Of a stretch of DNA of 64,000 nt, positions 15,320-24,082 are shown one piece after another. This DNA is from Herpetosiphon giganteus. GTDB lineage: Bacteria; Chloroflexota; Chloroflexia; Chloroflexales; Herpetosiphonaceae. Location of the stretch: the NCBI RefSeq assembly GCF_016907925.1, contig NZ_JAFBCZ010000004.1:124001-188000 (forward strand). The letters run 5' to 3'. The notes under the pieces are model-generated. The model did no database searches. It saw only the letters and a list, made by a program, of their open reading frames with translations, and was not told where the DNA came from. Each line of letters begins with the position of its first letter. The first letter of the stretch is position 1. Position numbers and translations under genes: made by a program.

Positions 15320-15348
15320 CCAACGAGCGTCCTGAGGGCGCTCGTTGG
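15320..15348 (+). terminator. Stem-loop after the VanW gene
   Basis: 10-bp perfect stem CCAACGAGCG/CGCTCGTTGG with a 9-nt loop, 27 nt after the stop. There is no T-run, so termination strength is uncertain. It separates VanW from the membrane-protein array. Confidence 0.5.
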
Positions 15349-15370: not shown

Positions 15371-16012
15371 ATGGCAGATCAGCCACTAAGCAGCCAATTA
15401 AATGCTACACATAACCCCCAACAGCTTGATAATCAAACCCCAAGCTATCAGGTTGCAAGCCAAAACGTCAATCAGCCTAAACGCTTGCGGCGCTGGTTTG
15501 GCTATAACGTACTGGCCTTCATGTTCGCTTTTGCAGTGTTCTATGGATTCGTGATTTGCATACTCATGGTCGCCGTGTATGAGCCTTTCAACCTTGACTG
15601 GATCGATAACCCAAGGCTGAACCCAATGCTTTCAATTGGGATACCAGGGGTACTGATTGGCTTGAGTGCAATGGTCGGCACTACCGCCCAACGCGATGGA
15701 TTGAACAAACGAGTTTCATTCTGGCCATGGATCTTAAAAACTGGTTTGATCACAACCATCATAAGCTCGGCAAACGTAGCGATCTTTATCTTTATGCTTC
15801 AACCACAGTCATTATTTAACAAAAACACTCGTTTAATCAGTATGCTGTATTTCATTGCCTGCATTGGGCTGATTACGTTGGCAACCGCAATGGCCCAACT
15901 GTCCGAAGTTAAAAAAATTGCCCAACGACCTAATGATTGGGTAAAAATCACAGTGTTAACCTGGACAGGCATTGCCTGCATACTCGGTGGCTGCATCTAT
16001 ATAATCTGGTAG
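15371..16012 (+). CDS. Array membrane protein 1 (four-helix paralogue family)
   Basis: 213 aa, first of nine tandem paralogues (15371-22242). Shared layout: a hydrophilic Pro/Gln-rich N terminus ending Y-V--A (here YQVASQ), a junction R-W-GYN-LAF (here [11 protein letters not shown]), about four membrane helices, and a C-terminal signature near W...T-LTWTG. Here the end is [24 protein letters not shown] lies 7 nt before ATG 15371. I do not recognise the family and no catalytic motif is visible. The proteins are likely in the cytoplasmic membrane with the Pro/Gln tail in the cytoplasm. Confidence 0.8.
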
Positions 16013-16031
16013 GTACGCTTAATTGCAATAG

Positions 16032-16040
16032 TGCTACAAT
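16032..16040 (+). promoter_or_regulatory. Extended -10 element before array gene 2
   Basis: TGCTACAAT, an extended -10 type sequence 68 nt upstream of the start. No good -35 is visible. It suggests the second array gene may have its own promoter. Confidence 0.35.
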
Positions 16041-16107
16041 TCCTAGGCCTTTTATTCCCAATTTAAGCTTGCGCAGCACGCTGATTGATCTATCAGGAGA
16101 TGTGTTT

Positions 16108-17043
16108 ATGTCTGATCGGATTCCCCCAACCACACCGATACATCCAGCCAATTTAGACCAACCAATTCCAACCCAAGCCCTTCAGCCTCAAGTAACGCGG
16201 GCATTTGATGGGTCAAGCCAAGAATTGCCAGCGAATCCAGCACCGTATGGTTATGGTCAGCAACAAGGCTACCAACCACAGGGCTATCAACAACCACAAG
16301 CGCCGTATGGCCAACAAAACTACGGCCAACCGCAAGCGCCCTATGGCCAACCACAGGGCTATCAACAACAAGGCTATGGCCAGCCGCAAGCGCCCTACGG
16401 CTATCAACAGCCAGTCGTCTATGGCAACCCTGGGTATATGGGGCCGCCACAATTTATTGCAGATATTAATGCACCTGATCGCGGGACGCGTTGGGTTGGC
16501 ATGAATGTGCTCGGCTTTTTTATCTCATCGATGATCTTTCTGAGCCTTTTTGTTATCCTAGGTATGATCATTGCCGCCGATTACATCGATTCAAATCCAA
16601 ACTTTCAAAACTTTAATGATTTAGACAATAGAGGTTTGATTGGCTACGTGCTTTATAGTTTATCGGGCGCGATTACTGCCGCAGTTGTGGCCTTAATTCA
16701 ACGTGGGGCTTTGCATAGTAAAGTTTCGTTGTGGCCATGGGTTGGCAAAACAGCGCTCGCGGTTGGCATTTTACTGCCGCTAAGCACCTTTCTCAGTGTA
16801 GAGCTACTTCAGATATTGCCAATTAGCGAAGGCAATTTTTTGATTTATATGCTCATGGTAACCTTTATTTTTGCTGTGACCGCGTTTGGTACAGCCTTTG
16901 TCCAATATTTTGAAGTCCAAGAGGTTGCCAATCGGCCAATGCAATGGCTGATCACGACTGGGCTAACATGGACAATCCTTGGTGGTTTGGTAGTTGGTGG
17001 CATGGTTGGCTTCTTTGCGATGGCAATTGCAGGCGAAATCTAA
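16108..17043 (+). CDS. Array membrane protein 2, with a Gln/Tyr/Gly/Pro repeat tail
   Basis: 311 aa, the longest array member. The N-terminal tail (about residues 50-115) is a low-complexity tract of QGYQQPQ, QAPYGQ and NYGQPQ units, comparable with the GSQPYGQ repeats of the kinase at 53862-55412. The family core follows: [11 protein letters not shown], about four helices, a central [13 protein letters not shown] and the ending [12 protein letters not shown]. The start is ATG 16108 with AGGAG 8 nt upstream; a longer open frame from 15937 overlaps the previous gene and is rejected. Tyr/Gln-rich tails often mediate self-association, but no role is demonstrated here. Confidence 0.8.
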
Positions 17044-17071
17044 CCAGCCGCCAAATCTCGAACGCGATCGT

Positions 17072-17108
17072 TGCTGGGTTTCCTCAGCTACAGAGAGGAA
17101 ACCCAGCA
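17072..17108 (+). terminator. Stem-loop after array gene 2
   Basis: Perfect 14-bp arms (TGCTGGGTTTCCTC with GAGGAAACCCAGCA) and a 9-nt loop, no T-run. It could attenuate read-through or protect mRNA ends within the array. Confidence 0.5.
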
Positions 17109-17152
17109 CACCTGATTAATCAGCAACCAATAAGGAGAGAAGAGAGGTTTTT

Positions 17153-17779
17153 ATGCTTGAACCATCGATGAATCCTCAGCAGCTAGCACATGCCGATTCG
17201 CCCCAAGGTTATCGTGTGCCAACTGCGCCGCTAACCAACCTCAATCAGCCAAATCGTTGGAAACGCTGGGTTGCAGTTAATGGCGTGGCTTGCTTTGGCG
17301 CAATCATACTCTTTCCAATTATTGTGATCATTGCTACTTTCATCCAAAACATGCACCCGTTGATATTTGACCAGCTAGACAGCGACAATCACTTATTTTT
17401 TATGCTCGGTTTGGGAATTATGGCAACATTAACTGCTATTCCCGTCGCCATGATTCAACATACAGCCTTTGGCGCTGCGATCCCACGTAGGCCTTGGGTC
17501 GCCAAATCGGCCTTGACAGCTGGGCTGCTGCTACCAACAAGTATGTTTTTGGCCCAGTTTAGCCTCCAAAGCCTCAACCAGCATTACGGTTTCATCCTGA
17601 TTATTTTTTTATTGATCGTTTTTGGGATGACCGCGTTTGGTACAGCATTAATTCAAGGACTTGAAATTCAAGCTGTTGTCGAATATCCACGCGATTGGGT
17701 TTGGATCAGTAGTTTAACCTGGAGCAGCATGAGCATCCTACTTGGCAGCCTGCTCCTTGCCTTGGTGGTGCTCCTATGA
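17153..17779 (+). CDS. Array membrane protein 3
   Basis: 208 aa member of the array family. N terminus ends YRVPTAPLTNLNQ, junction RWKRWVAVNGVACF, four helices, then LEIQAVVEYPRDWVW and SSLTWSSMSILLG. It is closest in layout to members 1 and 2, sharing with member 2 the segment GMTAFGTA versus [14 protein letters not shown] precedes ATG 17153 at a workable distance. Function unknown. Confidence 0.78.
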   Translation: MLEPSMNPQQLAHADSPQGYRVPTAPLTNLNQPNRWKRWVAVNGVACFGAIILFPIIVIIATFIQNMHPLIFDQLDSDNHLFFMLGLGIMATLTAIPVAMIQHTAFGAAIPRRPWVAKSALTAGLLLPTSMFLAQFSLQSLNQHYGFILIIFLLIVFGMTAFGTALIQGLEIQAVVEYPRDWVWISSLTWSSMSILLGSLLLALVVLL

Positions 17780-17877
17780 TGGAGCAAAACACGCTGACCA
17801 AGATGACCAAGCACACGCTTGCCTAAGCGGAATCAGGCAAGCCGCAGGAAGCGCTGGATTCGTAAGGAGTTGAGCAA

Positions 17878-18501
17878 ATGAGTGAAGAACCGCAAGTGCC
17901 ACTTAACCAAACAACACCGCTATATCACGTGCCATCGGCCCAGCTTGCAGCCCATAAGCAACCACGCCACTGGCTCGCTTGGCTGGGCATAAATTGCTTA
18001 GCATTTTTCATCAGCAGCATCATCTATCCAGTGCTCAACCTTGCGCTCATCTTCAGCATTGGAGCGACCAATGTGCAACTGCCACTGATCAACGGCCAGC
18101 GCGCGCTGCAACCCAACCTATGGGTCATCCTCATAATTCCTGTGTTTATCACGATCTTGATTGCAAGTTTGCTGCAAAGTCTGGCGATTAATCATCGTTT
18201 CAAGCGGCTATTTTGGAGCCTGAATAGTGCAACGCTGGGAACATTGAGCTTTGTTGGGATTACGTATTTCATTCTGTCCAAGCACGAGCCAACAACCCTC
18301 GCTGGCTATATCTGGGCTATTTTCTTTATTTTTGGGTTTACTTCAAGCGCAATTAGTTGGCTTCAATGGCGCGGAATCCGCCAGTTGGTTGATAATGCTT
18401 GGCAATGGGCATTAATCACCACGCTTAGCTGGACAACTCTAGGCAGCTTGATTTGGGGGGCTGGCTTGGGCTTTTGGCTCCGCAATTTAATGCGCCACTA
18501 G
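17878..18501 (+). CDS. Array membrane protein 4
   Basis: 207 aa. The N terminus has YHVPSAQLAAHKQPRHW, then WLAWLGINCLAFF, about four helices, SSAISWLQWRGIRQLVDNAW and TLSWTTLGSLIWGAGLG. Similarity to members 5 and 8 is visible in the FTSSAISW / SIISWVQW / ATSSAIGI segment. AAGGAG lies 9 nt before ATG 17878. A short inverted repeat GCTTGCCT/AGGCAAGC (17817-17842) precedes it. Function unknown. Confidence 0.78.
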   Translation: MSEEPQVPLNQTTPLYHVPSAQLAAHKQPRHWLAWLGINCLAFFISSIIYPVLNLALIFSIGATNVQLPLINGQRALQPNLWVILIIPVFITILIASLLQSLAINHRFKRLFWSLNSATLGTLSFVGITYFILSKHEPTTLAGYIWAIFFIFGFTSSAISWLQWRGIRQLVDNAWQWALITTLSWTTLGSLIWGAGLGFWLRNLMRH

Positions 18502-18516
18502 CCGAAGGAGTAGCCG

Positions 18517-19122
18517 ATGAGCGAAGAACCAGAACCAATTACATCAAATAAACCTAATTATCATGTGCCAACGGCTCAGCCAGCGGATACTGTTCAACCA
18601 AATCATTGGATGCAGTGGATTGCGATCAATTGTTTTGGCTTTGGGCTAAGCTGCATCCTATTTCCAAGCTTGGTTGCTGGTTGTATGCTCATTTTTGGAA
18701 CACTCAAAGATTCGGGTGCTGCTGGCCAAGCACCCATGTCGGATGGGTTAATCTTTATCATTGTCGTGGGTATTCCTACATTTATAACCATCTATCTCGT
18801 CACGCTACTTCAGTGGGCAACAATGGAAGAAGGGATTAAACGTAGTACTTGGGTTAACTACAGCACAATTATTGGCACACTTGCCTTGCTTGCTTGGCTC
18901 CATGATCAGCTGCCAATAAAATTTCCAGCGCTTGACAATTATGTCGGCTTTATGTTTCAGGGTTTTGTGCTTGCTTCCAGTATCATTAGCTGGGTACAAT
19001 GGCTTGAACTACGCAAAATAGTCGATCATGCATGGCAATGGGTAGTCGTCAGCATCACCATCTGGACAGGCATCGGCACGTTCGTTCTGGGAATAGGAAT
19101 TGGCTCTATAGTAGGCCGCTAG
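18517..19122 (+). CDS. Array membrane protein 5
   Basis: 201 aa. It begins MSEEPEP, nearly the same as member 4 (MSEEPQV). YHVPTAQPADTVQPNHW and WIAINCFGFG follow, then about four helices, SWVQWLELRKIVDHAWQWV and TIWTGIGTFVLGIGIG. AAGGAG is 7 nt upstream of ATG 18517 and the gap to member 4 is 15 nt, so they share a transcript. Function unknown. Confidence 0.78.
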   Translation: MSEEPEPITSNKPNYHVPTAQPADTVQPNHWMQWIAINCFGFGLSCILFPSLVAGCMLIFGTLKDSGAAGQAPMSDGLIFIIVVGIPTFITIYLVTLLQWATMEEGIKRSTWVNYSTIIGTLALLAWLHDQLPIKFPALDNYVGFMFQGFVLASSIISWVQWLELRKIVDHAWQWVVVSITIWTGIGTFVLGIGIGSIVGR

Positions 19123-19142
19123 GAGCAAGCGATGAGCAAGCG

Positions 19143-19421
19143 ATGAGCGAAGATCCAACAGCAAGCCCAACCAGCGATCAAGCGCCGCCAAATTATCGCG
19201 AGTATGGTCGCCATCCATATCCCTATAATCAGCGACCCAAACCCAACAACGATCCGCAACTCGGTTATTTTGTGCCCGCAATCCCTAATCAGCGAGGCCA
19301 GCACGTTAAACGCTGGGGCTGTGGGCTTGGCTATTTCATTTTAGCAATTATGGCCAGCTGTATCATCGTGCCAATTCTCTGTATCTTCATCCACACCCTG
19401 AGAGCATTATTCGAAGGCTAG
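19143..19421 (+). CDS. Array membrane protein 6, truncated to one helix
   Basis: 92 aa. It keeps the Pro/Tyr/Asn-rich N terminus, the YFVPAIPNQ element and the RWGCGLGYFILAI junction with one helix, but ends where the others continue with three more. It may be a working single-helix variant or a decayed copy. The 5' side carries an 11-bp tandem duplication (GAGCAAGCGAT twice, about 19123-19144), so AGGAG is 6 nt from a dead-end ATG (19132, stop after four codons) but 17 nt from the real start. This suggests weak translation. Confidence 0.6.
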   Translation: MSEDPTASPTSDQAPPNYREYGRHPYPYNQRPKPNNDPQLGYFVPAIPNQRGQHVKRWGCGLGYFILAIMASCIIVPILCIFIHTLRALFEG

Positions 19422-19436
19422 CCGCAGGAGCATCAG

Positions 19437-20090
19437 ATGTCTGAACCACTACCGAACCAATATGATTACACACAGCAGCAAACGCAACCAAGCTATCGTG
19501 TGCCAATCGCCGTTGATAACACGATCAATGCACCCAAGCGGTGGCGACGTTGGGTTGGCTACAACGTTTTAGCGTTTAGCATAGGTTGCATGAGTATGCT
19601 CTTAGGCACGTTTGTAATGGCGCTTATTTCAGATACAGTACGCAACGGATTACAGCAATTTGTCGAGAAGCTCTCGTTTAATGTGGCAGGCGTGCAAGCG
19701 ATTGCTATATTGCTCGGTTTCCCGCTCTTTCTGAGCATCGGCGTTGCCAGTATCATTCAATGGGCAGCCTTGTATCAGCAAGTAGCGGTTAAATCATGGG
19801 TTGCAGAGAGTGCAGTAAGTGGGCTTGGCGCAGCATTTTTGGTAGTATCCGTGATTATCATATCGATTATGCAACGCTCAGACACACCTCCATCGATAAA
19901 TTATCTATGGATCGTTTTTACCATGTTCCTGATAATTTCAACGGGCATTAGTTACTTTCAATGGAGGCAACTACGCACCATCCTCATCCATGCGTGGCAC
20001 TGGCCACTAATCGCAATCGCAACCTGGACTGGCATGGGTACGCTCATTGTCGGGCTTGGAATGGGCATAATTATCAATAACCTTCGCTAA
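19437..20090 (+). CDS. Array membrane protein 7
   Basis: 217 aa. The segment AVDNTINAP plus RWRRWVGYN is shared almost exactly with member 9 (21571-22242), marking a recent duplication pair. About four helices follow, with WRQLRTILIHAWHWPLI and TWTGMGTLIVGLGMG at the end. AGGAG lies 8 nt before ATG 19437. Immediately after its stop is a 32-nt piece of a foreign gene end (20091-20122). Function unknown. Confidence 0.8.
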   Translation: MSEPLPNQYDYTQQQTQPSYRVPIAVDNTINAPKRWRRWVGYNVLAFSIGCMSMLLGTFVMALISDTVRNGLQQFVEKLSFNVAGVQAIAILLGFPLFLSIGVASIIQWAALYQQVAVKSWVAESAVSGLGAAFLVVSVIIISIMQRSDTPPSINYLWIVFTMFLIISTGISYFQWRQLRTILIHAWHWPLIAIATWTGMGTLIVGLGMGIIINNLR

Positions 20091-20122
20091 TTAGCGAATG
20101 CCCAACATCGCCAAGCCCATGG
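20091..20122. repeat. Duplicated remnant of the 3' end of the GAF-STAS gene
   Basis: 31 of 32 bases match 22239-22270, the 3' end of the convergent GAF-STAS gene (its last codons read PMGLAMLGIR on the minus strand). The remnant sits directly after array gene 7, just as the intact sequence sits directly after array gene 9. Confidence 0.9.
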
Positions 20123-20147
20123 ATTTGTTGCTAGATTGGAGAATTCA

Positions 20148-20852
20148 ATGATCATTTCCGCAGATGCATTCTGTCATGCGATTTTGTTCCAAGATTATGC
20201 AACAATTCGCTCGGCAATTGGCGCAGGATTTGACGTTAACGGCCTTCGCAGCAACGGGCGCACTTCGTTTGTGCAAGCTGCCCAACCAGCGAAAGATATG
20301 GTAGTTTTACGCATGCTTTATGAGGCTGGTGCAGTGGCAGACACTCCTTGGTTAGAAGAGCTTTTTAATGATTTTGCCAATGGCATCGAGCGCACCAAAG
20401 CTCCAAGTCCCTGCCTCGACGCGGGAACTCCCGATTTTACCGACGAATTTACAGTTACCCGCTTTGAATATCAAGCGGGAATTTTGTATTTTTCCGAGGC
20501 AAGCAGCGATATTGAAATCGAGATTAAACCATTTATTCTAAATGGTGAGTGTGTTCAAACTTCAATTCGGGCTGATGGAATCGCCCTGTCACCAACACTT
20601 GATGATCTGCCAGATCGAACATTCAACTTCCCATTTAATCCCGATGATGGGTATATCGACGCATCGATCTATCTTTGTTATGGGCATAATTCCGTCAATA
20701 TTAGTTCAATTAGCTTCAAAAACCTCACACCCAATAAGCAACAGATCGATGCAGTTATTGAAATGCTTTTCGTGTTTGATGAGATAATTCCTGGCTATCC
20801 AACCGAAGCCCAAACCCTCGAAATATCCTTGGCAATTCAAACGATCGATTGA
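20148..20852 (+). CDS. Ankyrin-like N terminus with unknown C-terminal domain
   Basis: 234 aa, unrelated to the array proteins around it. Residues 5-70 resemble two ankyrin-type units (DYATIRSAIGAGFDVNGLRSN, then RTSFVQAA and LRMLYEAGAVAD). Residues 80-234 are an acidic, beta-rich region with no family I recognise. No signal peptide or membrane helix is seen, so it should be cytoplasmic. ATG 20148 is chosen with GGAG 6 nt upstream, over a TTG at 20136. It may bind the cytoplasmic tails of the neighbouring membrane proteins; that is only a guess from position. Confidence 0.65.
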   Translation: MIISADAFCHAILFQDYATIRSAIGAGFDVNGLRSNGRTSFVQAAQPAKDMVVLRMLYEAGAVADTPWLEELFNDFANGIERTKAPSPCLDAGTPDFTDEFTVTRFEYQAGILYFSEASSDIEIEIKPFILNGECVQTSIRADGIALSPTLDDLPDRTFNFPFNPDDGYIDASIYLCYGHNSVNISSISFKNLTPNKQQIDAVIEMLFVFDEIIPGYPTEAQTLEISLAIQTID

Positions 20853-20924
20853 TCGTCGCTTATCAACACAGGGAATTAAGGTCTAGGTTGAATTGATAAG
20901 CGAGACTATTTGAAGGGGCAGCAG

Positions 20925-21560
20925 ATGTATGAAGAAGGTCAATCGCCAATTGGAGCAATTAAGCCCACAACAACAGAACCCAATCTACCGCAAGCCTATC
21001 AGATTCCAACCATGCGGATAGCAGCCTACAATCGGCCAGGCCGCTGGCGAGGCTGGGTTGGCATTCAATGCTTGGCATTTTGCCTTGGCTGCATGCTCTG
21101 TTTGGGATTAATGGTTGTTGGTATATTTTTATTTGGCTATCTCACTGATTCAATCATCAATAGTCCCAACCTTCAGCTATTAAATTCGGGATTGATCGGG
21201 ATACTTTGTGGCGCAGTTTTTGTAACGATCTATAACATAAGCAGCGTACAAGCAGTGTTCATCAAGCATGCAGTCAAGCGGGTAACTTGGAGTTTCCATA
21301 GCGCAATTGTTGGCACGCTTACATTTACCCTTACCGCGATAAGTAGCCTTTTCTTGGGTGCAAATGATATTCTGCTCACAGGTTTGGTTTTTGGTGCAAC
21401 TTCAAGTGCTATTGGCATCATTCAAGCAATGAAACTCCGTTCAAGCCTTGATAATGCATGGCATTGGGCGCTTGTCACAGTGCTTACGTGGACAACTTTA
21501 GGCACATTGATCATCGGTGTATGGCTCATGCGATGGTTACAACCATTGAACGGCTCTTAA
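20925..21560 (+). CDS. Array membrane protein 8
   Basis: 211 aa. N terminus ends YQIPTMRIAAYNRPGRW, then RGWVGIQCLAFCLG, about four helices, SSAIGIIQAMKLRSSLDNAWHW and VLTWTTLGTLIIGVWL. It is nearest to member 4 in the last part (SFHSAIVGTLTF versus SLNSATLGTLSF). ATG 20925 has AAGGGG 6 nt upstream; the TTG at 20910 is rejected. It follows the ankyrin-like gene by 72 nt. Function unknown. Confidence 0.78.
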   Translation: MYEEGQSPIGAIKPTTTEPNLPQAYQIPTMRIAAYNRPGRWRGWVGIQCLAFCLGCMLCLGLMVVGIFLFGYLTDSIINSPNLQLLNSGLIGILCGAVFVTIYNISSVQAVFIKHAVKRVTWSFHSAIVGTLTFTLTAISSLFLGANDILLTGLVFGATSSAIGIIQAMKLRSSLDNAWHWALVTVLTWTTLGTLIIGVWLMRWLQPLNGS

Positions 21561-21570
21561 GGAACAGCAG

Positions 21571-22242
21571 ATGCATGAAGAACCACCAAACCTAGCCGAT
21601 GAGCAGCAGCAAATGCAACCACGCTACGACGCTCAACCAAGCTATCATGTGCCAAGCGCCGTTGATAACACGATCAATGCGCCGGAGCGTTGGCGGCGTT
21701 GGGTTGGCTACAACGCGTTAGCGTTTGGCCTCAGCTGCGGCATTATGCCCTTGGGCTGTTGCCTTATGTCGATCATAGCGACGGTGCTCCGCCATGGATT
21801 GCAGGACTTCGTTAATACTCGTACCTTAGACATGGCTGAAGCAGGCGCAATCTTTCTCTTGCTTAGTTTTCCGCTCTTTTTAACCATAAGTATCGCCAGC
21901 ATGATCCAACGTTCAGTATTGTATCACCAAGTGCCAGCCAGCCGCTGGATATTTGGCAGTGCCCTGAGCGGAATTGTTGCTATGTTTGGCGCAATGCTCT
22001 TAATTGGCTTGATTGCCTCGCTGCTGAACCTCGACTTCACGCTGTCTACCTATTTCTTGAGTATCGTTGGCATCTTTGCTGGCACATCAGCAGGCATTGG
22101 ATTTTTTCAGTGGAGACAATTGCGCAACATTATGGTCAATGCTTGGCACTGGCCGCTCATCTCAGGCGCAACCTGGACTGGGCTTGGAACCTTGGTGCTT
22201 GGGCTGGGCTTGGGCTATATCTATGTTCGCTTAAAAGTTTAG
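21571..22242 (+). CDS. Array membrane protein 9 (last of the array)
   Basis: 223 aa. It shares AVDNTINAP and RWRRWVGYN with member 7 and has WRQLRNIMVNAWHWPLI and TWTGLGTLVLGLGLG. AAGGA precedes ATG 21571 and member 8 ends 10 nt upstream. Its stop codon overlaps the stop of the convergent GAF-STAS gene (22239-22242), so there is no room for a terminator between them. Function unknown. Confidence 0.8.
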   Translation: MHEEPPNLADEQQQMQPRYDAQPSYHVPSAVDNTINAPERWRRWVGYNALAFGLSCGIMPLGCCLMSIIATVLRHGLQDFVNTRTLDMAEAGAIFLLLSFPLFLTISIASMIQRSVLYHQVPASRWIFGSALSGIVAMFGAMLLIGLIASLLNLDFTLSTYFLSIVGIFAGTSAGIGFFQWRQLRNIMVNAWHWPLISGATWTGLGTLVLGLGLGYIYVRLKV

Positions 22243-23162
22243 CGAATGCCCAACATTGCCAAGCCCATGGGTAAATCGCGGGCGGTGCGAATATTTTTGA
22301 GATGAATGCCAGCCCGAATCAGACCTTCGATCAAGCTTGGGCGCAAGCCAATCAGCATGCTTTTGGCCCCAATCAGTTCAATCGCTTTGACAATCGTACT
22401 AATCGCTTGAATCGCATCGGGATCGAAGGTCAGCAGGCCGCTGCCATCAAGCAACACATGCTCACAACCACGCTCGCGCAAGGTTTCGAGAATTGTCTGG
22501 GTCAGATGTTCCCAACGCAAGCGATCAAGCACGCCAATTAACGGCACGATCAACACATCATCGGAAAGCGGGATGCGTGGAATATCAAGCTCGCTCACTT
22601 CAAGCTCTAGCTCAGCCAACACTTGGGCGTTATCGAGAGCCAATGCCACCGAGCTAGCAACCGTGGTCAGCAAAGCTTCTTCAAACTCGCCATACAAGGC
22701 CGCTTGGTAACTTTGAATATTCAAAACCCCAATAAAATCGTCGCCAATTAGCAATGGCACGCTCATCCAGGCCCGCGAGCGTTTTTCTGCTTGGCCAAAA
22801 CTGCGGGTGTTTTCGATGCTGAATCGTTTGCTCAAATCTTCATGCAAATCATCAAAACGGATCAATTGGCGATTGGCAATAATCCAAGCCACCACTTTGG
22901 AGCGCCGATAATCCCAGGTATACGGCTCGGTTTTCTCAATGTCCCCATCAATCGAGTAGATCGTTTGCATGGTATCGGTTTTGGGCTGATAGTGCTCGAT
23001 AAAACCAGCATCGAATTGCAAGACGTTATGCAATTGCTGAAAAATGGTGCGACAGACATCAGCCAAATCGCGCGGCAGCAAAATTGCCCGAATCAATTCG
23101 TGAATCGCCACAATCGTTTGGGCAACCGGCTGATGATGACGGCTCCCTTCATACACACTCAT
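22239..23162 (-). CDS. GAF-STAS protein (RsbR-like), second of a pair
   Basis: 307 aa: an N-terminal GAF domain (about residues 30-165; FIGVLNIQSYQAALYGEFEE is a typical core) and a C-terminal STAS domain (about 190-295; HVLLDGSGLLTFDP, AIELIGAKSMLIGL). The RsbR/RsbT stressosome scaffold has this sensor-STAS layout. The Ser/Thr normally following the VD pair in STAS is Pro here (FDP), so phosphorylation at that site is not possible. ATG 23162 has GAGG 5 nt upstream. It lies directly behind its paralogue. Confidence 0.8.
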   Translation of the reverse strand: MSVYEGSRHHQPVAQTIVAIHELIRAILLPRDLADVCRTIFQQLHNVLQFDAGFIEHYQPKTDTMQTIYSIDGDIEKTEPYTWDYRRSKVVAWIIANRQLIRFDDLHEDLSKRFSIENTRSFGQAEKRSRAWMSVPLLIGDDFIGVLNIQSYQAALYGEFEEALLTTVASSVALALDNAQVLAELELEVSELDIPRIPLSDDVLIVPLIGVLDRLRWEHLTQTILETLRERGCEHVLLDGSGLLTFDPDAIQAISTIVKAIELIGAKSMLIGLRPSLIEGLIRAGIHLKNIRTARDLPMGLAMLGIR

Positions 23163-23173
23163 ACACACCTCAC

Positions 23174-24082
23174 TCAAATTTGGCGCTTGAGATAGCGCAA
23201 ACTTTGCTGCACATCGCGCACAACCACCACGTTATGCTGGCTGAGAATCGGGCTAAGCACTGCGCTATTTTCAGCTTGCACCCCGCTAATAATGCAGGTT
23301 GCACCCAATAAGCGCAAAGCGCCAATCAATTTGTTGAACAGGCCCGTTGCTTGCGGGTCGAATGAGCGCATGCCAGTTAAATCGAGTACGACATAGCGAA
23401 TGCGCTGGCGTTCGACATGGCCCAAAAGAATCGTTTGCAGAATGCTGAGGCGCTGCTGATCAACCCGCCCAATCACGGGCACAATCCATAAATGTTGATC
23501 AACTGGAATCGTCGGGGCGCTCAGGGCTAAACGCAAAACTTCCAATTCTTCGATGCGCTGAATTTGATTAATTGTGGTAGCAAGCATTAAACTGAGGGTT
23601 TGCAAGAGCTGCAATTCACGCTCGCCATAGGCCGCCAATTCGTGATGTTGAATCGTGACTAAGCCCAAAACTTGGCTGCCAAGGGTAATTGGTAAGCCCA
23701 GCCAACTACAACTGGCATGATGGAAATCAGCTCCCAAGGCATGCTCAAGGTTGATGTCGCTATGGCTGGCGTTATAAATATCGTCAAAGAGCAGCGGTTT
23801 TTTATGGCGCAAAATCCAAGCGCTCGGCGTATGCGGCTTGATCGTAACTGGCTCATCAGCAAAACTGCCGCGCCGATGGGCAATTACATACACATGGCGC
23901 AAGGCTTGTTGCTGATCAAAAAAGCTGATCGTACCATGATCAATTGGCACAACCTGCTCCAGCAAATGATAAAACGCTTCGTAAATTACAAAGCGATCGC
24001 GGGTGCGATGAATAACTTGGCCAAACTCTTGAATACATTCCAACTCAGCGCGTGCCCGTACCAACGCCTCAGTCGTCGGCAT
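23174..24082 (-). CDS. GAF-STAS protein (RsbR-like), first of a pair
   Basis: 302 aa, about the same layout as the gene after it: GAF domain (about residues 20-160; VLGLVTIQHHELAAYGERE) and STAS domain (about 185-295; YVVLDLTGMRSFDPQATG, ALRLLGATCIISG). It also has Pro at the usual phospho-site (FDP). The two genes are a tandem duplication and follow the ACT-domain gene by 25 nt in the same direction. No RsbT-type kinase or other stressosome gene is visible nearby, so the role is open. Confidence 0.8.
   Translation of the reverse strand: MPTTEALVRARAELECIQEFGQVIHRTRDRFVIYEAFYHLLEQVVPIDHGTISFFDQQQALRHVYVIAHRRGSFADEPVTIKPHTPSAWILRHKKPLLFDDIYNASHSDINLEHALGADFHHASCSWLGLPITLGSQVLGLVTIQHHELAAYGERELQLLQTLSLMLATTINQIQRIEELEVLRLALSAPTIPVDQHLWIVPVIGRVDQQRLSILQTILLGHVERQRIRYVVLDLTGMRSFDPQATGLFNKLIGALRLLGATCIISGVQAENSAVLSPILSQHNVVVVRDVQQSLRYLKRQI

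Follow-up and report, generated by a model that had tools for sequence, protein, structure and literature searches.

What is the array of nine membrane-protein genes that occupies positions 15371-22242 of a 64,000-nucleotide stretch of the genome of Herpetosiphon giganteus, a predatory soil bacterium (contig NZ_JAFBCZ010000004.1, positions 124,001 to 188,000; hereafter the window), and what could so many divergent copies do side by side? A preliminary description of this DNA had read them as paralogues of no known family, kept either by diversifying selection in a surface, defence or self-recognition role or as parts of a hetero-oligomeric assembly. Our results support the view that the proteins belong to a divergent branch of an unnamed membrane family of other Chloroflexota, for which the name QW-repeat was coined in this analysis. 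The reading that we tentatively favour, at somewhat less than even confidence, is that the locus could be a Herpetosiphon-specific recombining array of this branch that acts like a polyimmunity locus.

The nine open reading frames (ORFs) lie on the + strand, encode 92-311 amino acids (aa) and could be aligned as one family. A profile built from the nine returned exactly these genes from their own 6.16-Mb genome at E-values of 2.5e-16 or better, the next matches being at E 0.115 and 0.253, which agrees with the paralogy described before. Mechanically called ORFs starting at 15937, 19032 and 20910 are longer and enclose the starts 16108, 19143 and 20925 used here. Together with an ankyrin-like gene (this label, like "transposase" below, is a reading of the sequence by eye), the nine genes fill the + strand of the interval, with no toxin gene between members:

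15371..16012, + strand: array gene 1, 213 aa; one copy of its type per genome in 6/6 Herpetosiphon
16108..17043, + strand: array gene 2, 311 aa; tail of about 120 residues rich in Pro/Gln/Tyr/Gly (the Tyr/Gln/Gly tail noted earlier, which is real); type once per genome, 6/6
17153..17779, + strand: array gene 3, 208 aa
17878..18501, + strand: array gene 4, 207 aa
18517..19122, + strand: array gene 5, 201 aa; type in 6/6 genomes
19143..19421, + strand: array gene 6, 92 aa; tail and one hydrophobic stretch by eye, as the single-helix form described before; kept in 3/6 species
19437..20090, + strand: array gene 7, 217 aa; terminal-type member
20136..20852, + strand: ankyrin-like gene, embedded cargo, 238 aa
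20925..21560, + strand: array gene 8, 211 aa
21571..22242, + strand: array gene 9, 223 aa; terminal-type member

No array protein reached the cut-off of any Pfam or NCBIfam family, immunity families included. Matches below cut-off to ECF_trnsprt, CbiQ, 7TM_GPCR_Srw, 8xMP and others, with Pfam names varying from member to member, were treated as noise, as was MASE3_PAS_HK, the lone NCBIfam name common to two members (E only 0.58 and 0.88). PADLOC gave no convincing match (PDC-M18B at E 0.0035 for gene 4, PDC-M72A at E 0.042 for the ankyrin-like protein), nor did PHROGs when searched with three of the nine array proteins and two QW proteins (phrog_15254, of unknown function, at E 0.0065 for gene 4). 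A sequence search of the PDB yielded one match at E 2.5, and Foldseek against the PDB none at 0.001 (best E 0.72). Viral contigs held no relative of gene 9 or of one QW protein, and plasmids no relative of one QW protein.

Distant relatives were found instead when 400 Chloroflexota genomes were searched with 41 members (at most seven candidates scored per genome). Matches at E<=0.1 came from 26 genomes, six of them Herpetosiphon, and the best ones outside the genus (E 1.2e-5 and 9.1e-5) were membrane proteins with Q-W-x-x-L-R...A-x-W-W repeats; this pattern was present in four of eleven weak Chloroflexota loci (L047, L048, L051 and L060) and lacking from the other seven. The array profile matched an alignment of six QW proteins at Prob 96.3 and E 1.6e-9. 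Since these six had been picked via the array profile, the comparison was repeated with 16 other QW stretches (16 of 21 kept), giving Prob 94.6 and E 6.6e-8 over 136 columns; the controls scored Prob 0.2 (reversed profile) and 0.0-0.2 (eight column shuffles). Used as a query, the six-QW profile reached 30 of the 400 genomes at E<=0.001 (at most five candidates scored per genome), with array gene 9 at E 2.2e-10, and recovered array genes in three of the six Herpetosiphon genomes at that threshold.

Chloroflexota QW proteins such as L048:1297-1956 and L104:2856-3692 resemble the array proteins in two Q-x12/13-W inner loops between helices, an N-terminal W element and a match over 107-136 columns, and some of their genes (L099, L048, L047) also stand in tandem. 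The array branch differs in its Pro/Gln/Tyr tail with an invariant Tyr, its less G-rich helices and its long arrays, whereas the relatives carry a fuller Q-W-L-V-L-R-R form. The family assignment is weakened by several observations: the 16 stretches were traced via a profile descended from the array search and are not wholly independent, one QW-profile match (L098, by eye an ABC-type permease, E 8e-4) looks like chance, and L101 from Herpetosiphon G002, which joins a QW domain to a zinc ribbon below cut-off, also matches Pfam NMN_transporter at E 7.1e-5, likewise below cut-off. Four QW proteins tried against Pfam and NCBIfam matched no family above cut-off, and no mention of the QWLVLR motif was found in the literature. 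Similar proteins may occur in cyanobacteria. The earlier statement of "no known family" thus stands at Pfam and NCBIfam cut-offs, in PADLOC and in PHROGs (for three of nine proteins), and gives way in so far as the array proteins appear to be distant kin of a wider, unnamed membrane family.

The signature was counted over 45 full-length members from six species (48 with three short ones). A Y-x-[VIGA][PA] element, an xW[TIS] C-terminus and at least two Q-x12/13-W motifs were each found in 44/45, bearing out two of the shared motifs described before; the third, a W-W-N/H/Q junction, held in part, with 35/45 matching the pattern as written. In the main alignment of 41 full-length members (omitting L039 at 7820 and 9809, L041 at 8796 and 9845, and the three short ones), Y25, W44, W126, Q180, W194 and W202 are invariant and Q113 nearly so (gene 9 numbering). 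The segments Q113-W126 and Q180-W194 resemble two copies of an internal repeat; when one half was aligned with the other, Q fell on Q and W on W at P 0.0011, with a Prob of only 20.5.

AlphaFold models were built for genes 9 and 1, which lie well apart in the family, with 20 Herpetosiphon sequences each. Both consist of a disordered tail followed by five long helices, where four had been proposed, at a mean predicted local distance difference test (pLDDT) of 77.0 and 79.8 and a predicted template modelling score (pTM) of 0.69 and 0.70, respectively; the gene 1 model has an additional four-residue helix at residues 76-79. Mean counts of Lys+Arg versus Asp+Glu are 2.04 versus 0.33 directly before helix 1 and 2.04 versus 0.62 in loop 2-3. 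Acidic residues predominate in loops 1-2 and 3-4, and also in the tail. By the positive-inside rule, this charge pattern would place the N terminus and the Q-W loops on the inner side of the membrane and the C terminus on the outer side, an assignment weakest at loop 4-5 (1.91 versus 1.51). The charges support this topology only in part, loop 4-5 and the acidic tail counting against it.

Structural comparison of the two models gave best VIA-align Z-scores of 6.2 and 5.6, from which no family is claimed. The top rank for gene 9 was the ECF S-component ThiT (4tkr; Z 6.2, 133 residues, root-mean-square deviation (rmsd) 4.3), with ThiT 3rlb at Z 5.5 (125 residues, rmsd 4.0), both below the noise level of helical bundles; on the second model the corresponding comparison with 5edl reached Z 4.4. 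Pfam ECF_trnsprt appeared only at E 0.36 in one array member. S-components have six helices, whereas five are predicted for the array proteins.

The domain contexts of the QW relatives raise the possibility that the array encodes paralogous membrane sensors or anchors, whose QW domain would sense the envelope or lipid state and signal via the cytosolic tail. QW domains are fused to a Ser/Thr kinase in L097:2790-5765 (TPR and zinc ribbon there being below cut-off), to Kelch repeats recognised by Pfam in L094:1528-3552 (L095 is alike by eye) and to HAAS in L051. Together with the zinc ribbon of L101, also below cut-off, these fusions speak for such a role, the kinase and Kelch relatives may signal likewise, and the conserved inner loops of the array proteins are in keeping with it. 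The modelled array members, on the other hand, lack an output domain and add just a disordered tail to the helices, and sensing gives no reason for the recombination-driven turnover described below, so that we regard this explanation as unlikely.

All six Herpetosiphon genomes carry one array each, between the same flanking genes (a VanW gene on one side and GAF/STAS genes on the other), and none was found in 35 other relatives (E<=0.01). A search of a genome contig collection with gene 9 yielded two loci only, both Herpetosiphon; among the genomes searched, close members are restricted to this genus. Array sizes, compared between species and not between strains of one species, are 9, 5, 9, 9, 8 and 8 members, three arrays including a short form, so the proposed expansion does differ between species. 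Members were detected as open frames and decayed ones could be detected only in five intergenic stretches, where none was seen. In H. aurantiacus (G001), whose array has five genes, the second array gene is separated from the third by an insert of 668 bp (L037:6565-7232). This insert was considered as a decayed member and rejected; its one ORF is small and unrelated and, by eye, has a lone hydrophobic stretch. The available part of the H. llansteffanense genome paper makes no mention of paralogs, tandem, immunity, toxin or membrane protein.

In a tree of the 45 full-length members, which carries a long-branch warning for G0_8, G4_7, G4_4 and G2_8, species do not cluster (34 species-label changes against a shuffled mean of 29.2); therefore the paralogue types predate the species. 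The short form of gene 6 is 61-65% identical among three species over 98 aligned residues, or 72-79% in local alignments; being kept in 3/6 species, it is therefore not a recent pseudogene. Its start codon at 19143 is overlapped by a four-codon ORF (ATG AGC AAG CGA TGA, 19132-19146, by eye), as if for translational coupling.

Four types, those of gene 1, gene 2, gene 5 and the terminal members, are present in all six genomes, which is compatible with the hetero-oligomer of the preliminary description. An envelope assembly of this kind would have these four types as its fixed core and the others as optional subunits, and the cytosolic Pro/Gln-rich tails of the membrane platform would recruit partners that serve, for example, the filament's gliding, septa or secretion. 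Intergenic gaps in the window are short (10-20 bp at four junctions, 45-109 bp at the other five), and these gaps and the repeated ribosome-site junctions suggest one transcript; by eye, AGGAG-like sites precede most starts. The long low-complexity tail of gene 2, kept in all six species, and overall purifying selection also speak for an assembly. Nevertheless, subunits of fixed stoichiometry do not usually come with optional members, tandem copies, replaced alleles or a chimera, and we consider this explanation rather unlikely, if better placed than sensing.

Recombination within the array could be followed in L039, where a 1335-bp two-gene unit is repeated. The first 1169 bp of the two copies are identical, the last 166 bp differ at 45 positions, and the upstream copy ends in 180 bp that equal the 3' end of another array gene (180/180 identical), which puts the switch point about 166-187 bp from the unit end. 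Because of the identical unit start and the 180/180 match, one L039 member is evidently a chimera of two others formed via unequal crossing-over. Divergence between orthologues also varies along the array: measured against five flanking genes taken together, their synonymous divergence stands out at p<0.002 in 8/24 pairs, being higher in seven and lower in one (misaligned repeats may contribute to the excess synonymous divergence, pS, of gene 2), and in one species pair it ranges from 0.036 to 0.451 against 0.223 for the flanks. This spread would fit allele import or gene conversion.

Short sequence features accompany the array on both sides and at the ankyrin-like gene:

15320..15348, + strand: hairpin, a perfect 10-bp inverted repeat, between the VanW-like gene and array gene 1
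20091..20122, + strand: copy of 32 bp, 96.9% identical to the 3' terminus of the GAF gene downstream, read as a recombination scar
22239..22270, + strand: 3' terminus of the convergent GAF/STAS gene, to which the 32-bp copy corresponds

The 32-bp copy follows gene 7 in the window, and a 26-bp copy of the GAF end precedes the ankyrin-like gene in G002; both are read as scars of insertion at the array end. The array turns over by recombination, duplication and what appears to be import. The hairpin core has a single match in its own genome, and similar GAGCG-loop-CGCTC sequences precede genes 1 and 3 in three other species (L037, L038, L039). The GAF end belongs to one of two adjoining - strand genes (22239-24082), each encoding GAF and STAS and overlapping by a few bases, which adjoin the array in every one of the six species.

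Strictly defined, diversifying selection was not borne out. The ratio of nonsynonymous to synonymous divergence (dN/dS) is 0.07-0.60 in 24 array orthologue pairs, for which mechanical ORF starts added extra non-coding codons for genes 1, 2, 6 and others, and 0-0.12 in 25 comparisons of the flanks, with a slight overlap at gene 2; array values are thus below 1 yet above the flanks in nearly all pairs. By region (22 pairs, short gene omitted; trimmed starts, as in the synonymous test), dN/dS is 0.36 and 0.47 in the outer loops, 0.29 in the tail, 0.15-0.27 in the helices and 0.13 and 0.16 in the inner loops, and stays below 1 in all eleven regions. Such a gradient could be expected of surface decoys or variable phage-contact proteins, whose changing outer loops would evade phages or predators; the fastest divergence does fall in the outer loops and alleles appear to be replaced. 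Given that every region remains below 1, that the outer loops are short and that PADLOC gave no convincing match, this role seems improbable. Raised dN/dS with no positive selection could also reflect neutral, lineage-specific paralogues under relaxed constraint, with no function at the level of the array. That is similarly doubtful, as the four types are kept in 6/6 genomes, the inner Q and W are near-invariant across the 41 aligned members, and the five intergenic stretches held no decayed member.

The defence or self-recognition role proposed before has gained one indirect support, from the ankyrin-like gene. It is found in four of the six Herpetosiphon genomes and, at E<=0.001, nowhere else in the 400 Chloroflexota genomes. 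Three copies belong to arrays (window and G004, between genes 7 and 8; G002, after the last gene), two of them with GAF-end copies. The fourth, from H. aurantiacus (L109:9729-10454), is 56% identical and stands outside the array, 322 bp from a 3103-aa ORF (L109:95-9406) whose 3' part encodes RHS repeats, PT-HINT and a WHH nuclease domain; the 322-bp gap contains no ORF longer than 63 aa, and a transposase-like ORF (by eye) is located near the RHS gene. This adjacency is suggestive of an immunity role, not proof of one. Comparable ankyrin-type proteins are Imm-Ank (PMC3482391) and the self-protection protein of the predator Bdellovibrio (PMC4686830); the point in common is an ankyrin-like protein whose gene neighbours that of a polymorphic toxin in a predator. 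As a difference, the Herpetosiphon protein has no match to Pfam ankyrin at E up to 1. An ORF on a Vibrio campbellii plasmid (L112:9947-10405) resembles its C-terminal part (30.9% identity over 55%), with uninformative neighbours, and this C-terminal domain may be more widely spread.

Polyimmunity loci, as characterized by Zhang et al. (2012; PMC3482391), are homogeneous or heterogeneous, toxin-free, same-strand and closely spaced sets of genes that vary between relatives and mostly occur once per genome; a recombinase gene adjoins several of them, not all, and extended loci had at that time been observed in certain Proteobacteria, Bacteroidetes, Firmicutes and Actinobacteria alone. In layout the Herpetosiphon array corresponds to such a locus, being toxin-free and on one strand, with short gaps, variable and distant paralogues, one copy per genome and an ankyrin-type gene among them. 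It differs in consisting of five-helix membrane proteins, in belonging to a phylum for which Zhang et al. had seen no extended loci, in the missing toxin link of the QW genes and in the absence of a recognised recombinase.

Against the reading of the locus as polyimmunity-like weigh a number of observations besides the lack of any immunity-family match. When the surroundings of QW genes elsewhere (33 loci, 27 places, mostly 1.5-kb flanks) were searched by phmmer at E<=0.1 with segments of the H. aurantiacus RHS protein, covering one kind of toxin, no RHS/HINT relative of that gene was found, and the sole positive was the locus from which the query came. An earlier motif scan for RHS in these loci (0/33) was not used, as that motif also missed the known RHS gene; a looser motif occurred four times in the H. 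aurantiacus RHS locus and once in one of the 33 QW loci (L067). No recombinase was recognised by eye among the listed frames beside the array, and no profile search was aimed at recombinases. The ankyrin-like gene is absent from 2/6 genomes, and its homologue and the RHS gene are arranged convergently, where a shared strand would be usual. The four universal types suit a core assembly, the fusions to kinase and Kelch parts fit a sensor or anchor equally well, and dN/dS stays below 1 throughout, while faster outer loops are common among membrane proteins.

On balance, self-protection against toxins, with the array acting as a polyimmunity locus would, is to us the best reading of its function, though a doubtful one, and that it actually is such a locus is less probable than that. 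If it does so act, a predator that must survive the toxins of its own kind and of rivals could keep each array member in the membrane to bind or block, through its variable outer loops or its membrane domain, a single class of envelope-active toxin, incoming or self-made. The Q-W loops and the tail would then form a common inner scaffold, and the array locus would have acquired, in the ankyrin-like gene, a soluble immunity protein. The boldest form of this proposal, that the array is the first polyimmunity locus of polytopic membrane proteins, a new QW-derived class of envelope immunity reshuffled by a wolf-pack predator against its own and its kin's weapons, seems to us rather unlikely, much as the assembly does.

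Taken as a whole, the analysis links an array of orphan membrane proteins to the unnamed QW-repeat family, whose membrane domain, with no Pfam match found, is seen in kinase and Kelch fusions. The chimera, with its sharp breakpoint, shows how such an array grows, and the array offers a testable place in which to seek self-protection in predatory Chloroflexota.

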